DNA of 64,000 nt. Source: Algoriphagus terrigena DSM 22685 (GTDB lineage Bacteria; Bacteroidota; Bacteroidia; Cytophagales; Cyclobacteriaceae). The first letter of the stretch is position 1. Every line of letters starts with the position of its first letter. The position numbers and the translations under genes were made by a program. The DNA lies in the NCBI RefSeq assembly GCF_000429445.1, contig NZ_KE386904.1:310001-374000 (forward strand). Reading direction: 5' to 3'. Of this stretch, positions 4,009 through 62,312 are shown one piece after another. Below the pieces are notes generated by a model. That model was not told the DNA's origin. It saw nothing but the letters and a program-made list of their open reading frames with translations, and did not search any database.

Positions 4009-4105
4009 GGTTGCTATTTTTTCAAGCTAATTTATTGCAGGTTCGGCGCTCTTTTCAGTAATAAAAGTCACCCAGACCCATAATTTTTCTTTGTTAATCG
4101 CTGAT

Positions 4106-4912
4106 TTACAAGGATGTCAGTTCCTTTCCAATGATGTATATCCCCATGAGTAGGACAAACCAACCAAACCCTGTTTTGAGTGCTTTTTCGTTGATATTTT
4201 TTGACATCGCACTTCCTATAAATATTCCCATAATAGACAATCCCGTGAAGATCAACAGCATCTTCCAATCAATTGTCTGAGTGGAAATATCTCCCAGAAA
4301 TCCGATCAGAGACTTTGCTGCAATGATCAGCAGCGAGGTACCTACCGCCATCTTCATGGGGAGTTTGGCTAGGATGACCAAAGCCGGGATGATCAAGAAT
4401 CCTCCTCCCGCACCAACAATTCCCGTAATCAAACCTACCACCGAGCCTTCCAAAGCAATCAAGGGAAGATTGAATCGGACTTCTTCATTCTCATTGCAGT
4501 CCACACACTTCTTATTTCTGATCATTGAGACCGATGCTGCAAGCATGATCACCGCAAAAAAGACCATTATTCCGACATCCTTGGTAATGGCAAGCTCTCC
4601 GACCGAAAAGAGTGGGTCTGGAAGCCAGGGCACCAGAAATTTACGGGTCAGAAAAACCGCTATAAATGACGGAATGGCAAAAACAACCGCGGTCTTGTAG
4701 TCGACCAGGCCCTTTTTCATGAAAGTTCCGGCTCCTACCAAAGAGGTGGACCCCACGACAAACAGGGAATAGGCTGTCGCCAAAACCGGGTCGACTCCCA
4801 GGATATATACCAAGACCGGCACCGTAAGGATCGAGCCACCACCGCCAATCAGCCCCAGACTGATACCGATCAAAACAGCCGCCGCAAAGCCCACAAGAGT
4901 TACTACATCCAT
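4106..4912 (-). CDS. TauE/SafE-family sulfur-compound permease
   Basis: About 268 residues starting at the ATG at 4912 (MDVVTLVGFAAAVLIGISLG). The 22-codon upstream extension overlaps the putative operator and lacks membrane character. It has eight or so helices and the two glycine-rich repeats characteristic of TauE/SafE (LIGGGGSILTVPVLVYILG near the N-terminus and TGIVGAGGGFLIIPALV in the second half). A soluble loop between the halves has a CVDC motif. The family exports sulfite or organosulfonates, or moves other sulfur species. A Crp/Fnr-type site and an exact TACTTTTG -7 element lie upstream, and rhodanese follows. The substrate is not predictable from sequence. Confidence 0.9.
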   Translation of the reverse strand: MDVVTLVGFAAAVLIGISLGLIGGGGSILTVPVLVYILGVDPVLATAYSLFVVGSTSLVGAGTFMKKGLVDYKTAVVFAIPSFIAVFLTRKFLVPWLPDPLFSVGELAITKDVGIMVFFAVIMLAASVSMIRNKKCVDCNENEEVRFNLPLIALEGSVVGLITGIVGAGGGFLIIPALVILAKLPMKMAVGTSLLIIAAKSLIGFLGDISTQTIDWKMLLIFTGLSIMGIFIGSAMSKNINEKALKTGFGWFVLLMGIYIIGKELTSL

Positions 4913-4964
4913 TTCCGTTAGTTGAATCCCCCGCAAAAGTAAGAGGGTGCAGTTCCTCTTTGTC

Positions 4965-4978
4965 GTAACATTTGTCAC
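4965..4978. promoter_or_regulatory. Putative Crp/Fnr-type operator upstream of tauE
   Basis: On the minus strand GTGACAAATGTTAC is an imperfect inverted repeat. It matches the near-perfect palindrome upstream of the Crp/Fnr gene (6609-6622) at 12 of 14 positions. A -7 element TACTTTTG (exact TAnnTTTG) lies at 4934-4941. The operator centre sits 34 bp upstream of the -7 centre, close to the -41.5 position of class II activators. No good -33 box is present, as expected for an activated promoter. Confidence 0.5.
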
Positions 4979-58159: not shown

Positions 58160-60052
58160 ATGCCCCAAACCAAAAAGTTCATCATTGATTTTGACAGTAC
58201 CTTTACCCAAGTAGAAGCGCTGGACATTCTCGGCGAAATCAGCCTGGTGAATGATCCCGACAAGGAACGAAAACTCCAGGCGATCAAAGACATCACCGAC
58301 AAAGGCATGGAAGGCTCCATCACCTTCAGAGAAAGTCTCGAACAGCGACTGGATATCCTGAAAGCCAGCAAAGCCCAAATCACGGACCTGATCACTGCGC
58401 TTCACCAAAAAGTCTCGAAATCTTTTGAAAGAAACAAAGAGTGGTTTCATGACAATGCCAAGGACGTTTATATCATCTCCAACGGTTTCAAAGACTTCAT
58501 CATCCCAATCGTATCCGAATATGGGATTCTGAGAGAAAACGTGTTTGCAAACGACTTCGTCTACGATGAATCGGGGCAAATCATCGACTTCAACAGGGAA
58601 AATCCGCTTTCCAAAAACAACGGAAAGGCAGAAACCATCAAAAACGTGAACCTTGAAGGCGATATTTATGTAATTGGTGATGGCTACACCGACTACGAAA
58701 TCAAGGCTTCGGGACTGGCAAATAAGTTCTATGCCTTTGTGGAAAATGTCCACCGACCCAAAGTCGTCAGCCAGGCTGATCACATTGCACCAAGTTTTGA
58801 CGAAATCCTTTATATCAATAAGTTGAACACGAAATTTTCTTACCCAAAAAGCCGGATCAAAGTTCTCCTCTTGGAAAACGTACATCCGATTGCAGTACAG
58901 CTTTTGACCGAAGAAGGCTATCAAGTGGAAGTGGCTTCCGGCGCCATGAGCGAAGAAGAACTTTGCGAAAAGATCAAAAACGTCTCGATCCTGGGCATCC
59001 GCTCCAAAACCAATGTCACCAAGAAAGTCTTGGAAAACGCCAACAGACTGTTGGCCGTCGGCGCGTTCTGCATTGGTACCAACCAGATCGATCTGGAAAC
59101 CTGTCAGGAAAAAGGCATCGCGGTGTTCAACGCACCCTTTTCCAACACCCGCTCCGTCGTGGAGATGGCAATCGCGCAGATTATCTTCCTGATGCGCCGC
59201 TTCTCTGACAAATCCGTCGGGATGCACCAAGGCATCTGGGACAAATCTGCCACGGGTTCTTTTGAGATCCGCGGCAAAAAGCTGGGAATCATCGGCTACG
59301 GCAACATCGGTGCCCAGCTCTCTGTCCTTGCCGAAAACATGGGCATGAACGTGTTCTATTTCGATGTCATCGAAAAACTCGCCCTGGGCAACGCCACCAA
59401 GGTCAATTCCCTGGAGGAACTGCTCGCCACCTGCGATGTGATTACGCTGCATGTCGACGGCCGAAAAGACAACAAATGCCTTCTCGATCGACAGAAGATC
59501 AGCTTGATGAAAAAGGGTGCGATCTTGGTCAACCTCAGCCGTGGCCATGTCGTCGATATCCCTGCATTGAGAGACGCGATCCTTTCCGGCCAGCTGGGCG
59601 GATGCGCGGTAGATGTGTTCCCTGAGGAGCCAAAAAATAACAAGGAGTCGTTTGAGTCAGAGTTGAAAGGTCTGCCAAATACGATCCTGACTCCGCATAT
59701 CGGCGGCAGCACGCTGGAAGCACAGGAGAATATCGCACGGTTTGTCCCTGGCAAGATCATGGAATACATCAACACCGGCAATACCTACAACTCGGTCAAC
59801 TTCCCAAATATCCAGCTTCCGTTCCTGAAGGATGCGCATCGTCTGATCCACATTCACCTCAACGAACCGGGTGTGTTGGCAAAAATCAACCAGATCCTGG
59901 CCAACTACAACATCAACATCGTGGGCCAGTATCTCAAGACGAACGAGAAGATCGGCTACGTGATCACCGATATCGAGAAAGTCTATGAAACCGAGGGAAT
60001 CGAGGCTTTGAAGACCATTCCCGGCACGATCCGATTCAGAACGCTTTATTGA
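58160..60052 (+). CDS. serA: Fusion of phosphoserine-phosphatase-like and phosphoglycerate dehydrogenase
   Basis: 630 residues. N-terminal HAD domain (about 1-210): IDFDST with Asp10 and Asp12, YIISNGF, and VIGDGYTDYE, like SerB. The rest is a D-3-phosphoglycerate dehydrogenase: substrate-binding half (about 235-330), NAD-binding GIIGYGNIGAQ, catalytic region ending TPHIGGST, and a C-terminal ACT domain (LNEPGVLAKINQILANYNINIVGQ). It combines the first and third steps of serine synthesis; SerC is elsewhere. The ACT domain may allow serine feedback. The usual DFDGT is DFDST here. A terminator follows at 60079-60111. Confidence 0.93.
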   Translation: MPQTKKFIIDFDSTFTQVEALDILGEISLVNDPDKERKLQAIKDITDKGMEGSITFRESLEQRLDILKASKAQITDLITALHQKVSKSFERNKEWFHDNAKDVYIISNGFKDFIIPIVSEYGILRENVFANDFVYDESGQIIDFNRENPLSKNNGKAETIKNVNLEGDIYVIGDGYTDYEIKASGLANKFYAFVENVHRPKVVSQADHIAPSFDEILYINKLNTKFSYPKSRIKVLLLENVHPIAVQLLTEEGYQVEVASGAMSEEELCEKIKNVSILGIRSKTNVTKKVLENANRLLAVGAFCIGTNQIDLETCQEKGIAVFNAPFSNTRSVVEMAIAQIIFLMRRFSDKSVGMHQGIWDKSATGSFEIRGKKLGIIGYGNIGAQLSVLAENMGMNVFYFDVIEKLALGNATKVNSLEELLATCDVITLHVDGRKDNKCLLDRQKISLMKKGAILVNLSRGHVVDIPALRDAILSGQLGGCAVDVFPEEPKNNKESFESELKGLPNTILTPHIGGSTLEAQENIARFVPGKIMEYINTGNTYNSVNFPNIQLPFLKDAHRLIHIHLNEPGVLAKINQILANYNINIVGQYLKTNEKIGYVITDIEKVYETEGIEALKTIPGTIRFRTLY

Positions 60053-60078
60053 TCTGAGAGGAGTTTCGCTATTAAAAG

Positions 60079-60111
60079 ATGCTAGTCGACTATTCGGCTG
60101 GCATTTTTTTT
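60079..60111 (+). terminator. Rho-independent terminator of serA
   Basis: ATGCTAGTCGA and TCGGCTGGCAT pair over 11 bp (two G-U) with a 4-nt loop, followed by TTTTTTT. It lies 26 bp past the serA stop. Confidence 0.8.
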
Positions 60112-60364
60112 GGTTTCGCGGATTGCTTTAGCCGCTGTTCGCCGCTGTCCCGCTTCTCCGAAAGCTGGACGCTGTTCGGCCGCTTCTTCCGAACCTGTCA
60201 GTGTCTCGTTTCCCGATTCCAATGAGCTGAATCTTTCTGGTAGCCGGGAGTATAAGCAGAATATTATTTTGAAAAATAGAATTATTCGTTGCTACAGCAA
60301 CGTGATTGCTATTTTTTGGTACCCTATTCCACCTACAGCAAGAGCGTTTCTGTTTTTTGCACCA

Positions 60365-60532
60365 ACGTTCCTACTTTTTATAGGAACGTTCTACCATTTT
60401 GGTACATCGTTCTTACTTTTTGCAAGAACGTTCCTACATTTTATAAGAACGTTCTACCATTTTGGTACAACGTTCCTACTTTTTGTAAGAACGTTCCTAC
60501 CTTTTGGTACAACGCTTCTACTTTTTGGTACA
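60365..60532. repeat. 21-bp tandem repeat, 8 copies plus degenerate flanks
   Basis: Eight contiguous 21-bp units start at 60365, 60386, 60407, 60428, 60449, 60470, 60491 and 60512. Each begins with ACGTTC, TCGTTC or ACGCTTC and contains a C-T-A-C-T5 core, ending AAGA, GTACA or AGGA. Degenerate units flank on both sides (60323-60364 and 60533 onward). The unit length is a multiple of three, so frames stay open across it. There are no spacers, so it is not a CRISPR array. Confidence 0.85.
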
Positions 60533-60585
60533 TCGTTCCTCCTACAGATGGATTGGTCTTGTTTGGACTGGGAAGATTTATTGTT

Positions 60586-60795
60586 CGACCCCGATAGGGT
60601 CGTGGGGGTCGCGGCATGGTATGTTATCCACGGGTTTCACCCGCGGTTATTGAGAAGTTTGACCCCTGCCGGGGTCGGAAAACTGTTTTCGATGGTTTGG
60701 AATAATGACCACGAAGTGGTCGAACCTTTCAATAGCCCTCGGTGAAACCGGGGGAATGAGGATTAACGAGGGTGACACCAACCCCGAAGGCGGTT
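60586..60795. repeat. Cluster of six short hairpin palindromes
   Basis: Palindromes with 3-5-nt loops: CGACCC/GGGTCG (60586-60602), CCACGGGT/ACCCGCGG (60628-60646), GACCCC/GGGGTC (60661-60676), GACCAC/GTGGTC (60707-60721), CCCTCGGT/ACCGGGGG (60736-60754), and a weak AACC..GGTT (60780-60795). Three of the loops are GAA or its complement TTC. The arms are short and separate, unlike a terminator. This looks like a Bacteroidota intergenic palindromic mosaic, which I recognise only by style. Confidence 0.6.
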
Positions 60796-61046
60796 GAACT
60801 TTTGGGAAATCGAATTACAAATCCCGAAAAACAGAAAGTCCAGTCCCTGATTGCCGCACTTCATCGTTCCAATAGTCATAGTTCACAAAATGCCCCAAGG
60901 AAAAAAGTATCGGCTACCCGTCTAATTGATGATTTTGCCTAATTTCAGCTTTCGACAACCCGTATCTCAAGTCTGCAAAATCGATCTGTCATCTGACTCC
61001 CTTCAGTTTCCAGAGCCTCTTTTGCAGCAGAAACTCACTCCCAACC

Positions 61047-62312
61047 ATGGCTAGATCCAGTGAAAATCAGCTTGACAAACCCAGCGTCAGCTCTCAAGAC
61101 CGACGATCATTTATCCGTAAGACTATCTTTTCCACTTTTTCGGCGGTACTGGGCGCAGAGATCATCCATGCAGCTTCGATACCGGAGGGGTACATTCCAG
61201 TCGCCCTGGCTCAGCAGTTTGATCCGATGAAAGGCAAAAATCCGGAGATGATTATCCGCAGCGATCAACCCTGGAACGTGGAAGCCAGACCGCATCACTT
61301 GGACGATGCGATCACACCCTTTGAAAACATCTTCATCCGAAACAACGGGCTGATCCCAGAAGACATCGATGCCACCAGCTGGGCGCTGACCATCGGCGGT
61401 GAATCTGTGAGCAAAGAAAAAACCTACACGCTCGCGGAGCTCAAAACAAAATTCAAACCCTACACCTATCAACTGGTCCTGGAATGTGGCGGAAATGGCC
61501 GGGCCGGATTCTATCCACCCACCGCCGGCAATCAATGGGAAGAGGGTGCAGTTTATTGTTCTGAATGGACTGGAATACGATTGAAAGATCTGCTTCAAGA
61601 CGTGGGAATCAAGTCCGACGCAGTCTACATCGGCTACTATGGCACAGACAAGCACCTCAACGGAGATGGTTCCAAGCCGGTGATCTCCCGGGGCGTACCG
61701 ATCTCCAAAGCCATGCAAGATGAGACGCTTGTCGCCTGGTCATTGAATGGCAAAGACATCCCGCTCGCGCACGGCTATCCGCTTCGGCTGGTTTGCGGAG
61801 GCTGGCCAGCGTCCGTATCCGGCAAATGGCTGAATAAGCTCGTCGTCAGAAACAAAGAACACGACGGTGCCAAGATGACCGGCGATTCCTATCGGATGCC
61901 AAAAAATCCTGTTGCTCCAGGAGAGGAAGGGACGGTAGAAGATATGACCATCATCGAATCCATGCCAGTCAAGTCCCTCATCACCTATCCCAAGACAGGT
62001 GCGATGTTTGCCAAATCCAAGAAACTGAATGTCCGCGGCCATGCGTGGGCAGGGGAATTTGAAGTTTCGGAAGTTCAGGTCTCGATTGACTTTGGTGCTA
62101 CCTGGAAGAAATGCATCTTAAAAAAACCAGCGAATCGCCTCGCCTGGCAACAATGGTCTACGGAACTGGCTTTCCCCGAAGCGGGCTACTACGAAGTCTG
62201 GGCAAAAGCGACCGACAGCCAGGGCATCTCACAACCCATGGTCATTCCGGGTTGGAATCCAAAAGGCTACCTAAACAATGCCTGTCATCGAATTGCCGTC
62301 AAAGTTAGCTAA
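61047..62312 (+). CDS. Tat-exported sulfite-oxidase-family molybdoenzyme
   Basis: 421 residues. Twin-arginine signal DRRSFIRK (Arg19-Arg20) marks Tat export of a folded cofactor protein. The Mo-pterin domain (about 75-280) has the molybdenum ligand Cys147 in LVLECGGNGRAGF, and GYPLRLVCGG later. An Ig-like dimerisation domain (about 300-421) follows. Sulfite oxidases and SoxC/SorA relatives oxidise sulfite to sulfate, passing electrons to cytochrome c; the next gene encodes such a cytochrome. Substrate is likely sulfite, but other members use different substrates. Confidence 0.93.
   Translation: MARSSENQLDKPSVSSQDRRSFIRKTIFSTFSAVLGAEIIHAASIPEGYIPVALAQQFDPMKGKNPEMIIRSDQPWNVEARPHHLDDAITPFENIFIRNNGLIPEDIDATSWALTIGGESVSKEKTYTLAELKTKFKPYTYQLVLECGGNGRAGFYPPTAGNQWEEGAVYCSEWTGIRLKDLLQDVGIKSDAVYIGYYGTDKHLNGDGSKPVISRGVPISKAMQDETLVAWSLNGKDIPLAHGYPLRLVCGGWPASVSGKWLNKLVVRNKEHDGAKMTGDSYRMPKNPVAPGEEGTVEDMTIIESMPVKSLITYPKTGAMFAKSKKLNVRGHAWAGEFEVSEVQVSIDFGATWKKCILKKPANRLAWQQWSTELAFPEAGYYEVWAKATDSQGISQPMVIPGWNPKGYLNNACHRIAVKVS

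Follow-up and report, generated by a model that had tools for sequence, protein, structure and literature searches.

What is the run of short hairpins at 60583-60799 of the window (the whole stretch of 64,000 nucleotides of Algoriphagus terrigena DSM 22685 that was analysed), and what could have placed it there? An earlier note had described five good palindromes and a weak one within 210 bp (60586-60795, a slightly smaller span than that found here) and took such runs for dispersed intergenic palindromic elements. The count holds, with H1′ as the weak member. The six hairpins are two mirrored half-units, H1-H2-H3 and H3′-H2′-H1′, such that the whole block is one imperfect palindrome (Table 1); this single-unit nature had been overlooked. 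An inverted repeat lies within the block (60627-60667 / 60715-60755). The GAA or TTC loops that had been reported are present in H2 (TTC, when the inner T-A is counted as paired), H3′ and H2′, but H1 and H3 have other loops. An array with a 21-bp period and GAACGTTC palindromes lies to the left, at 60340-60540; it is absent beside other copies of the element and is therefore separate from it.

Table 1. Features of the hairpin block and its surroundings (window coordinates; R1 and R2 are the covariance models described in the text).
Feature	Position	Strand	Description
Whole element	60583-60799	.	imperfect palindrome with ends GTTCGAC ... GTTGAAC; mirrored halves, by-eye comparison with 6 other near full-length copies
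Left half-unit core (H2-linker-H3)	60624-60680	+	R1 71 bits, E 1.9e-17 (R1 training row); R2 40.8 bits, E 2.7e-9
Right half-unit core (H2′-linker-H3′), inverted	60702-60758	-	R1 70.1 bits (R1 training row); R2 48.1 bits, E 3e-11
Hairpin H1, outer left	60586-60602	+	CGACCC-CGATA-GGGTCG
Hairpin H2	60628-60646	+	CCACGGG-TTTCA-CCCGCGG, one mismatch; TTTCA loop region conserved
Linker TTATTGAGAAGTTT joining H2 to H3	60647-60660	+	conserved, [CT]TATT core
Hairpin H3	60661-60676	+	GACCCC-TGCC-GGGGTC
Hairpin H3′	60707-60721	-	GACCAC-GAA-GTGGTC, GAA loop
Hairpin H2′	60736-60754	-	CCCTCGGT-GAA-ACCGGGGG, one mismatch, GAA loop
Hairpin H1′	60779-60796	-	CAACC..GGTTG; weak, degenerate in the window copy; by eye
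Side palindrome GGAATTACAAATTCC, degenerate form	60811-60825	.	adjoins H1′ in several copies; by eye

The block folds better than its dinucleotide shuffles, both as DNA (z -2.8; 3 of 200 shuffles equally good) and as RNA (z -3.2; 1 of 200). By a strict count it contains four perfect hairpins in 210 bp, a number reached by 0.36% of 210-bp windows and matched at two further positions of the window, around 41.3 and 58.9 kb. Fold energy and hairpin density on their own are modest evidence; it is repetition and covariation that settle the reality of the block. As the earlier note had stated, there is no strong T-tail: the terminator scan gave only a marginal match inside the block, around H3 (60658-60679), and a stronger candidate directly 3′ of serA (60074-60109), with 2 terminator-like matches observed and 1.4 expected. 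The gene to the left of the block (58160-60052) looks, by eye, like a fusion of a SerB-like phosphatase and D-3-phosphoglycerate dehydrogenase. No Rfam family scored above its gathering threshold in 60000-61100 of the window (four matches with E up to 1, far below it) or in eight loci.

Searches of the genome of the strain, a 5.78 Mb draft in 57 contigs, revealed six other near full-length copies with 73-82% identity at the DNA level, together with partial ones. The order H1, H2, linker, H3, H3′, linker, H2′, H1′ is common to all seven copies (by eye). A covariance model of the half-unit core, R1, was built from 39 sequences of this genome and seven congeners and has 57 positions and 14 pairs; as input to the alignment A1, 8 of 46 regular-expression candidates were dropped and one was added by hand. 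R1 found 32 half-unit matches in the genome, 14 of which form seven tail-to-tail pairs, all plus then minus, 74-92 bp from start to start. Open reading frames of at least 150 amino acids were avoided by 28 of the 30 matches checked, and one of the two exceptions (L276) is probably due to a misplaced test position. Across 58 genomes, R1 was positive in 31 of the 35 other Algoriphagus genomes (32 of 36 with the strain itself; seven of the 35 supplied training rows) and in 3 of 22 from the rest of the order, all three weakly. The block thus repeats in its own genome and in relatives, and the reading as a dispersed intergenic palindromic element is borne out. The low identity among the copies of the strain fits an old, inactive family.

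Two side observations concern these copies. In three of them (L010, L013 and L017, at G000 C2:535k, C28:36k and C20:128k) the loop of H2 contains another short hairpin family (GGTTCGACTTCGCTCACCAACC-like), suggesting that hairpin families insert into one another's loops. The flank of the L017 copy (4078-4972) is also 88% like that of a different subclass 1.2 transposase of genome G015 (L048, 1-894), which hints at shared insertion hot spots.

The stems covary. In A1, a MAFFT alignment, 89% of the cells pair and 70 cells are changed on both sides (27 in shuffles), while the number of pairs with double changes, six, is no higher than in shuffles. In A4, which holds loci outside the genus, double changes affect 13 of the 14 pairs, compared with 8.1 in shuffles, and both-side changes are found in 84 cells, compared with 26. 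For A3, an alignment fitted to the model and hence leaning towards it, the both-side-changed cells number 422 against 117. Covariation alone does not distinguish DNA from RNA. RNA helices would be expected to hold more wobble pairs than are seen here: A3 has 33 in about 1,800 paired cells, A1 has 14 in about 487 and A4 has 18 in about 416. The scarcity of wobble fits a structure needed in DNA, with either strand perhaps folding; it is an argument, not proof.

These data bear on the possibility that the hairpins act in untranslated mRNA, where they would stabilise transcripts or bind a protein, as had been proposed. Covarying hairpins, an RNA fold better than shuffles and a mostly intergenic position would all suit such a role, which we nevertheless consider unlikely: wobble pairs are few, no Rfam family matches, the terminator-like hairpin after serA precedes the block, and with mirrored halves any transcript would hold both strands of the unit. 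An RNA role would also leave the inverted layout around transposase genes, described below, unexplained. The mirrored layout and the position around the transposase gene point to DNA, and mRNA protection is not needed to explain the element.

The earlier note had suggested a search for a REP-associated transposase (RAYT). The Y1_Tnp profile, positive in 49 of the 58 genomes, found nothing in the genome of the strain, a draft of 57 contigs whose gaps could hide a gene, and a profile of the partner protein of relatives, run without a positive control, had no match there either. A RAYT in this genome is rejected on the empty Y1_Tnp search of the draft. The suggestion was thus wrong in the letter, but right in spirit, as the partner in relatives is a Y1 (HUH) enzyme of the IS200/IS605 type. 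Half-units directly adjoin a Y1 gene on both sides in three genomes (G014, G018 and G022) and strongly on one side in a fourth (G004). The protein has 148 amino acids and the motifs DH[LI]H, WQ and YIKNQ-EHH. The motifs published for TnpA_Y1 subclass 1.2, in the part of the source used here, are 148 amino acids, DH[IV]H, WQ and YIKNQKEHH (PMC6006769). In the flanked clade Y---Q--HH (YIKNQEEHH or near), WQ and the length of 148 amino acids are all present, and DHLH, found in most members, is one residue off the tabled HuH consensus; the sister group has WA. On these published motifs, the partner is assigned to subclass 1.2.

Profile comparisons agree with a protein of the IS200 type. Each of the 16 members scanned gave a match to the NCBIfam IS200/IS605 model (NF033573) with E up to 0.001, and the three with scores (60-66 bits) pass its cut-off of 55. 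The RAYT model is matched by 10 of the 16 at E up to 0.001 (best 2.2e-11); one member scored 22.5 bits against a cut-off of 80. In the PDB the protein matches ISHp608 (E 1.1e-5).

The association is specific to one clade. R1 was used to search 104 Y1 loci, 80 newly fetched with flanks of up to 1.5 kb and 24 from earlier, and a tree was constructed from 89 of the proteins, 15 loci being left out for short proteins, weak matches or short flanks. In this sample of the genus and order, the genes of all loci with R1 matches above 20 bits fall in one 17-row clade (support 100/99), three rows of which (L059-L061) are loci that also supplied R1 training sequences. The nine strongest rows, with L127 and L151, form an 11-row subclade, and the other six rows carry a weaker-scoring form. 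Among the 72 rows outside the clade two have 19-bit matches; a gene fragment with a 36-bit match (L179) was too short for the tree. The 49 relatives with any Y1 match have 1-10 each, spread over many clades.

Flanking repeats are also seen when no model is used. With a threshold of 40 bits, a repeat shared by the two 700-bp flanks of the gene was present in 61 of the 80 loci from the genus and order (24 of the 104 Y1 loci being left out for short proteins, weak matches or short flanks), and in none of the 28 serA loci or the 44 window genes. For the named loci across phyla, 10 of 79 being left out, the flanks repeat each other in 44 of 69, compared with 0 of 53 distal pairs on the same contig and 10 of 276 mismatched pairs. 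The repeated sequence was inspected in 16 of the 80 cases, and most of it folds into short hairpins. Other genes of subclass 1.2 are flanked by their own repeats. At one locus (L057, G004:C49) a 131-bp direct repeat stands on both sides of the transposase of another subclass 1.2 clade; judged by eye, this repeat resembles coding sequence, namely the 3′ part of an smc-type gene.

The unit is found beside subclass-1.2-like genes far outside the genus. A scan of contigs with the partner profile A2 gave at least 587 loci, the best 79 of which, none of them cyanobacterial, were sampled; 44 of these best 79 were R1 positive. Setting aside 13 Cyclobacteriaceae loci by title or by identity with genomes of the genus, among them those of Belliella and Mongoliibacter, which we take to belong to this family, and keeping as outside the metagenome-assembled genomes (MAGs) titled only 'Bacteroidetes', R1, although trained on one genus, was positive in 33 of 66 outside loci of subclass-1.2-like genes and found nothing in the other 33. 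The positives include Chryseobacterium, Kaistella, Segetibacter, Tangfeifania, Chlorobiota, Verrucomicrobiota, one Fibrobacter and one Pirellulales (weak, 19.5 and 22.4 bits); several are MAGs with vague or doubtful labels, and beyond Bacteroidota, Chlorobiota and Verrucomicrobiota the matches are few and some are weak. One MAG titled Spirosoma fluviale (L235, contig CAMCBC010000158.1) appears identical to a contig from the genus of the window (G007:C158), so that its title is doubtful.

The units at these loci have near-fixed places. In the outside loci, 24 of the 26 nearest upstream matches within 300 bp have minus orientation (2 have the other), and 27 of the 30 nearest downstream matches have plus orientation (3 have the other), the plus ones lying at a median distance of 50 nt (7-74) from the match end; the nearest upstream unit lies a median of about 65 nt before the gene. 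Units are present on both sides in 21 outside loci. The zone up to 300 bp from the gene has a match density about 53 times that of the sequence beyond it (looser group of 70 loci; the table lacked some rows of L191 and L192, neither of which is in the outside group). The core common to loci is CC-stem-TTTCA-stem-GG-[CT]TATT-N4-6-TT-hairpin.

A second model, R2, was built from outside loci only (34 units from 20 loci, five of them MAGs titled merely 'Bacteroidetes'); 10 of the 44 units selected for A4 and R2 had been dropped, among them ones with long loops, a truncated one, and Algoriphagus or Cyclobacteriaceae ones. In the 64-kb window R2 has exactly two matches, and they are the two halves of the block (E 3e-11 and 2.7e-9). 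Neither R1 nor R2 matched in 29 serA loci. Whole-genome R1 totals, in which gene-side copies are included, are 22, 28, 18 and 4 in four Chryseobacterium, 29 in Segetibacter, 7 in Tangfeifania, 82 in Belliella calami, 70 in A. boritolerans, and 5 and 6 in two Verrucomicrobia bins. The unit is far from universal in the phylum, with R2 positive in 18 of 148 genomes at E up to 1e-4 under strict filters.

The close spacing to the gene would also be expected if the units were control or terminator structures of transposase genes that spread by recombination and are not substrates of the enzyme, the nearest ones lying, by their medians, about 50 nt after and about 65 nt before it. We regard this as very unlikely, given that unit orientation is opposite on the two sides of the gene, that tail-to-tail pairs exist alone, and that many copies are far from any transposase gene, including those of a genome in which none was found.

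Copy number is higher where the transposase clade is present. The median number of units per genome is 21 in the 13 genomes with the clade and 4 in the 23 without it (p 6e-5), in hand-typed presence lists and counts not scaled to genome size, many of the clade-less genomes being small or incomplete. Restricting the comparison to genomes with a completeness of 90% or more gives medians of 21 (11 with the clade) and 4.5 (12 without; p 0.001). Exceptions are the strain itself, with 32 matches and no transposase found, G015, with 20 and no clade member, and G040, with 33 and only a gene fragment. These unit-rich genomes mean that enzyme and elements are linked only statistically. Such persistence in genomes that lack the clade would be natural if the repeat were spread by another enzyme, either another Y1 class or an unrelated transposase, with the subclass 1.2 genes merely inserted at it. 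The chance of this appears very slim, because repeated chance insertion could hardly produce either specificity to one clade among 89 Y1 proteins or a layout conserved in several phyla.

One orthologous site shows how loss of the transposase can happen. In G018 (L059, G018:C9) the site is occupied by about 12.5 kb that include the transposase, several blocks and further open reading frames, whereas its sister G020 (L297, G020:C1:498400-500600) has a solo half-element there, together with about 150 bp that have no match; the comparison fits deletion as well as insertion. No clean empty site was found between these sisters, nor any target duplication or cleavage site. For the window copy, a tblastn search of 29 other serA loci with flanks of up to 1.5 kb placed the next gene (61047-62312) near serA in none of them, and the orthologous site is therefore not obtainable. 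As no transposase was found in the strain, its copies are probably relics that now only diverge; the genome appears to have lost the enzyme and kept the repeats.

Taken together, the block is probably a non-autonomous REPIN-like element of two tail-to-tail recognition units (H2, [CT]TATT linker and H3, with the outer H1), cognate to a subclass 1.2 HUH/Y1 transposase that would have mobilised it and orphaned in this genome. What is observed directly is the repetition, the anatomy, the covariation and a link with a single transposase clade and, at a greater remove, with the subclass in several phyla. In the parts of the literature cited, relatives of the enzyme bind hairpins of single-stranded DNA and cut beside them (mostly at CT in the case of the TnpA_REP studied), and they are believed to mobilise or duplicate the unit (PMC8266576, PMC8049555). 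By analogy, the subclass 1.2 enzyme would recognise the hairpin pair in single-stranded DNA during replication, cut near the linker, whose core often begins with CT, and move or copy the paired unit to other intergenic sites. The left half of the window block has TT where the linker core often has CT, so that a cut site at CT is a candidate only. In relatives and in other phyla the gene is often flanked by inverted copies of the half-unit, in the order unit(-)-gene-unit(+); the order in the free element, unit(+)-unit(-), is the inverse and looks like a right end joined to a left end. Joined-end intermediates are known for IS200/IS605, and formation of the free element through joined ends would be an attractive route.

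More broadly, it seems rather likely that subclass 1.2 has a DNA partner, the two-hairpin [CT]TATT unit, kept from Bacteroidota and Chlorobiota to Verrucomicrobiota and possibly in Planctomycetota and Fibrobacterota, which spreads as paired REPIN-like elements and constitutes another REP system, one that was built independently around an IS200-type enzyme, with other subclass 1.2 clades having hairpin repeats of their own. The substrate of the subclass was an open question, and a covarying unit at near-fixed places is a concrete candidate. In the open-licence literature, mostly at the level of titles and the beginnings of abstracts, no report of subclass 1.2 repeats or of a two-hairpin unit was found. 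If correct, this reading would account for one class of hairpin strings between the genes of Bacteroidota and their neighbours, would mean that REP-like systems evolved twice, on separate branches of one enzyme family, and would make the strain a natural case of elements outliving their transposase.

One of the closest known parallels is with the REPtrons, REP/REPIN sequences and their RAYT (TnpA_REP). As described in the parts of the sources drawn on, they likewise consist of short dispersed intergenic palindromes in inverted pairs, with arrays around a low-copy HUH/Y1 gene, a repeat type tied to the transposase type, and copies that outlive the gene (PMC6006769, PMC3733652, PMC8266576, PMC8049555). 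Dispersed short intergenic palindromes (32 matches) and two inverted copies as one unit (7 pairs) are found here too. A REP, however, is a single hairpin with a GT[AG]G foot, whereas each half of the present element is two covarying hairpins with a [CT]TATT linker, plus an outer hairpin. By eye, A1 and A4 have no GT[AG]G column before H2 or H3; GTT[TCA] is usual before H3 in A1, and TT before the H3 stem in A4. The enzymes differ as well, class 2 with Y---NP and the partner here with Y---Q--HH; no class 2 TnpA_REP gene was found as cognate, the strain giving no Y1_Tnp match and the partner in relatives passing the IS200 cut-off. Subclass 2.6 (RAYT group 5) is similar in its presence in Bacteroidetes, its lack of GT[AG]G and its 'atypical secondary structures' with copies elsewhere in the genome, but has YIH[QN]NP and a median of 179 amino acids, compared with YIKNQ-EHH and 148; the protein motifs and the IS200 model match rule it out as the partner.

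With IS200/IS605 (TnpA subclass 1.1) the element shares its closest enzyme, the IS200 TnpA, and hairpins near the gene ends. It differs in that its ends are inverted copies of one two-hairpin unit, with a dispersed form that is tail to tail, and in that the Y1 proteins of one genome are mostly in different clades, unlike the high copy number of near-identical IS200/IS605 genes. The partner resembles subclass 1.2 as described in the part of PMC6006769 used here in length, in the W and Y motifs, nearly in the HuH motif and in the phylum, Bacteroidetes. That account (Quentin et al. 2018; PMC6006769) places the subclass close to IS200, generally without IS end structures, and its table gives 'no' in the REP column, whereas a repeat partner was found here.
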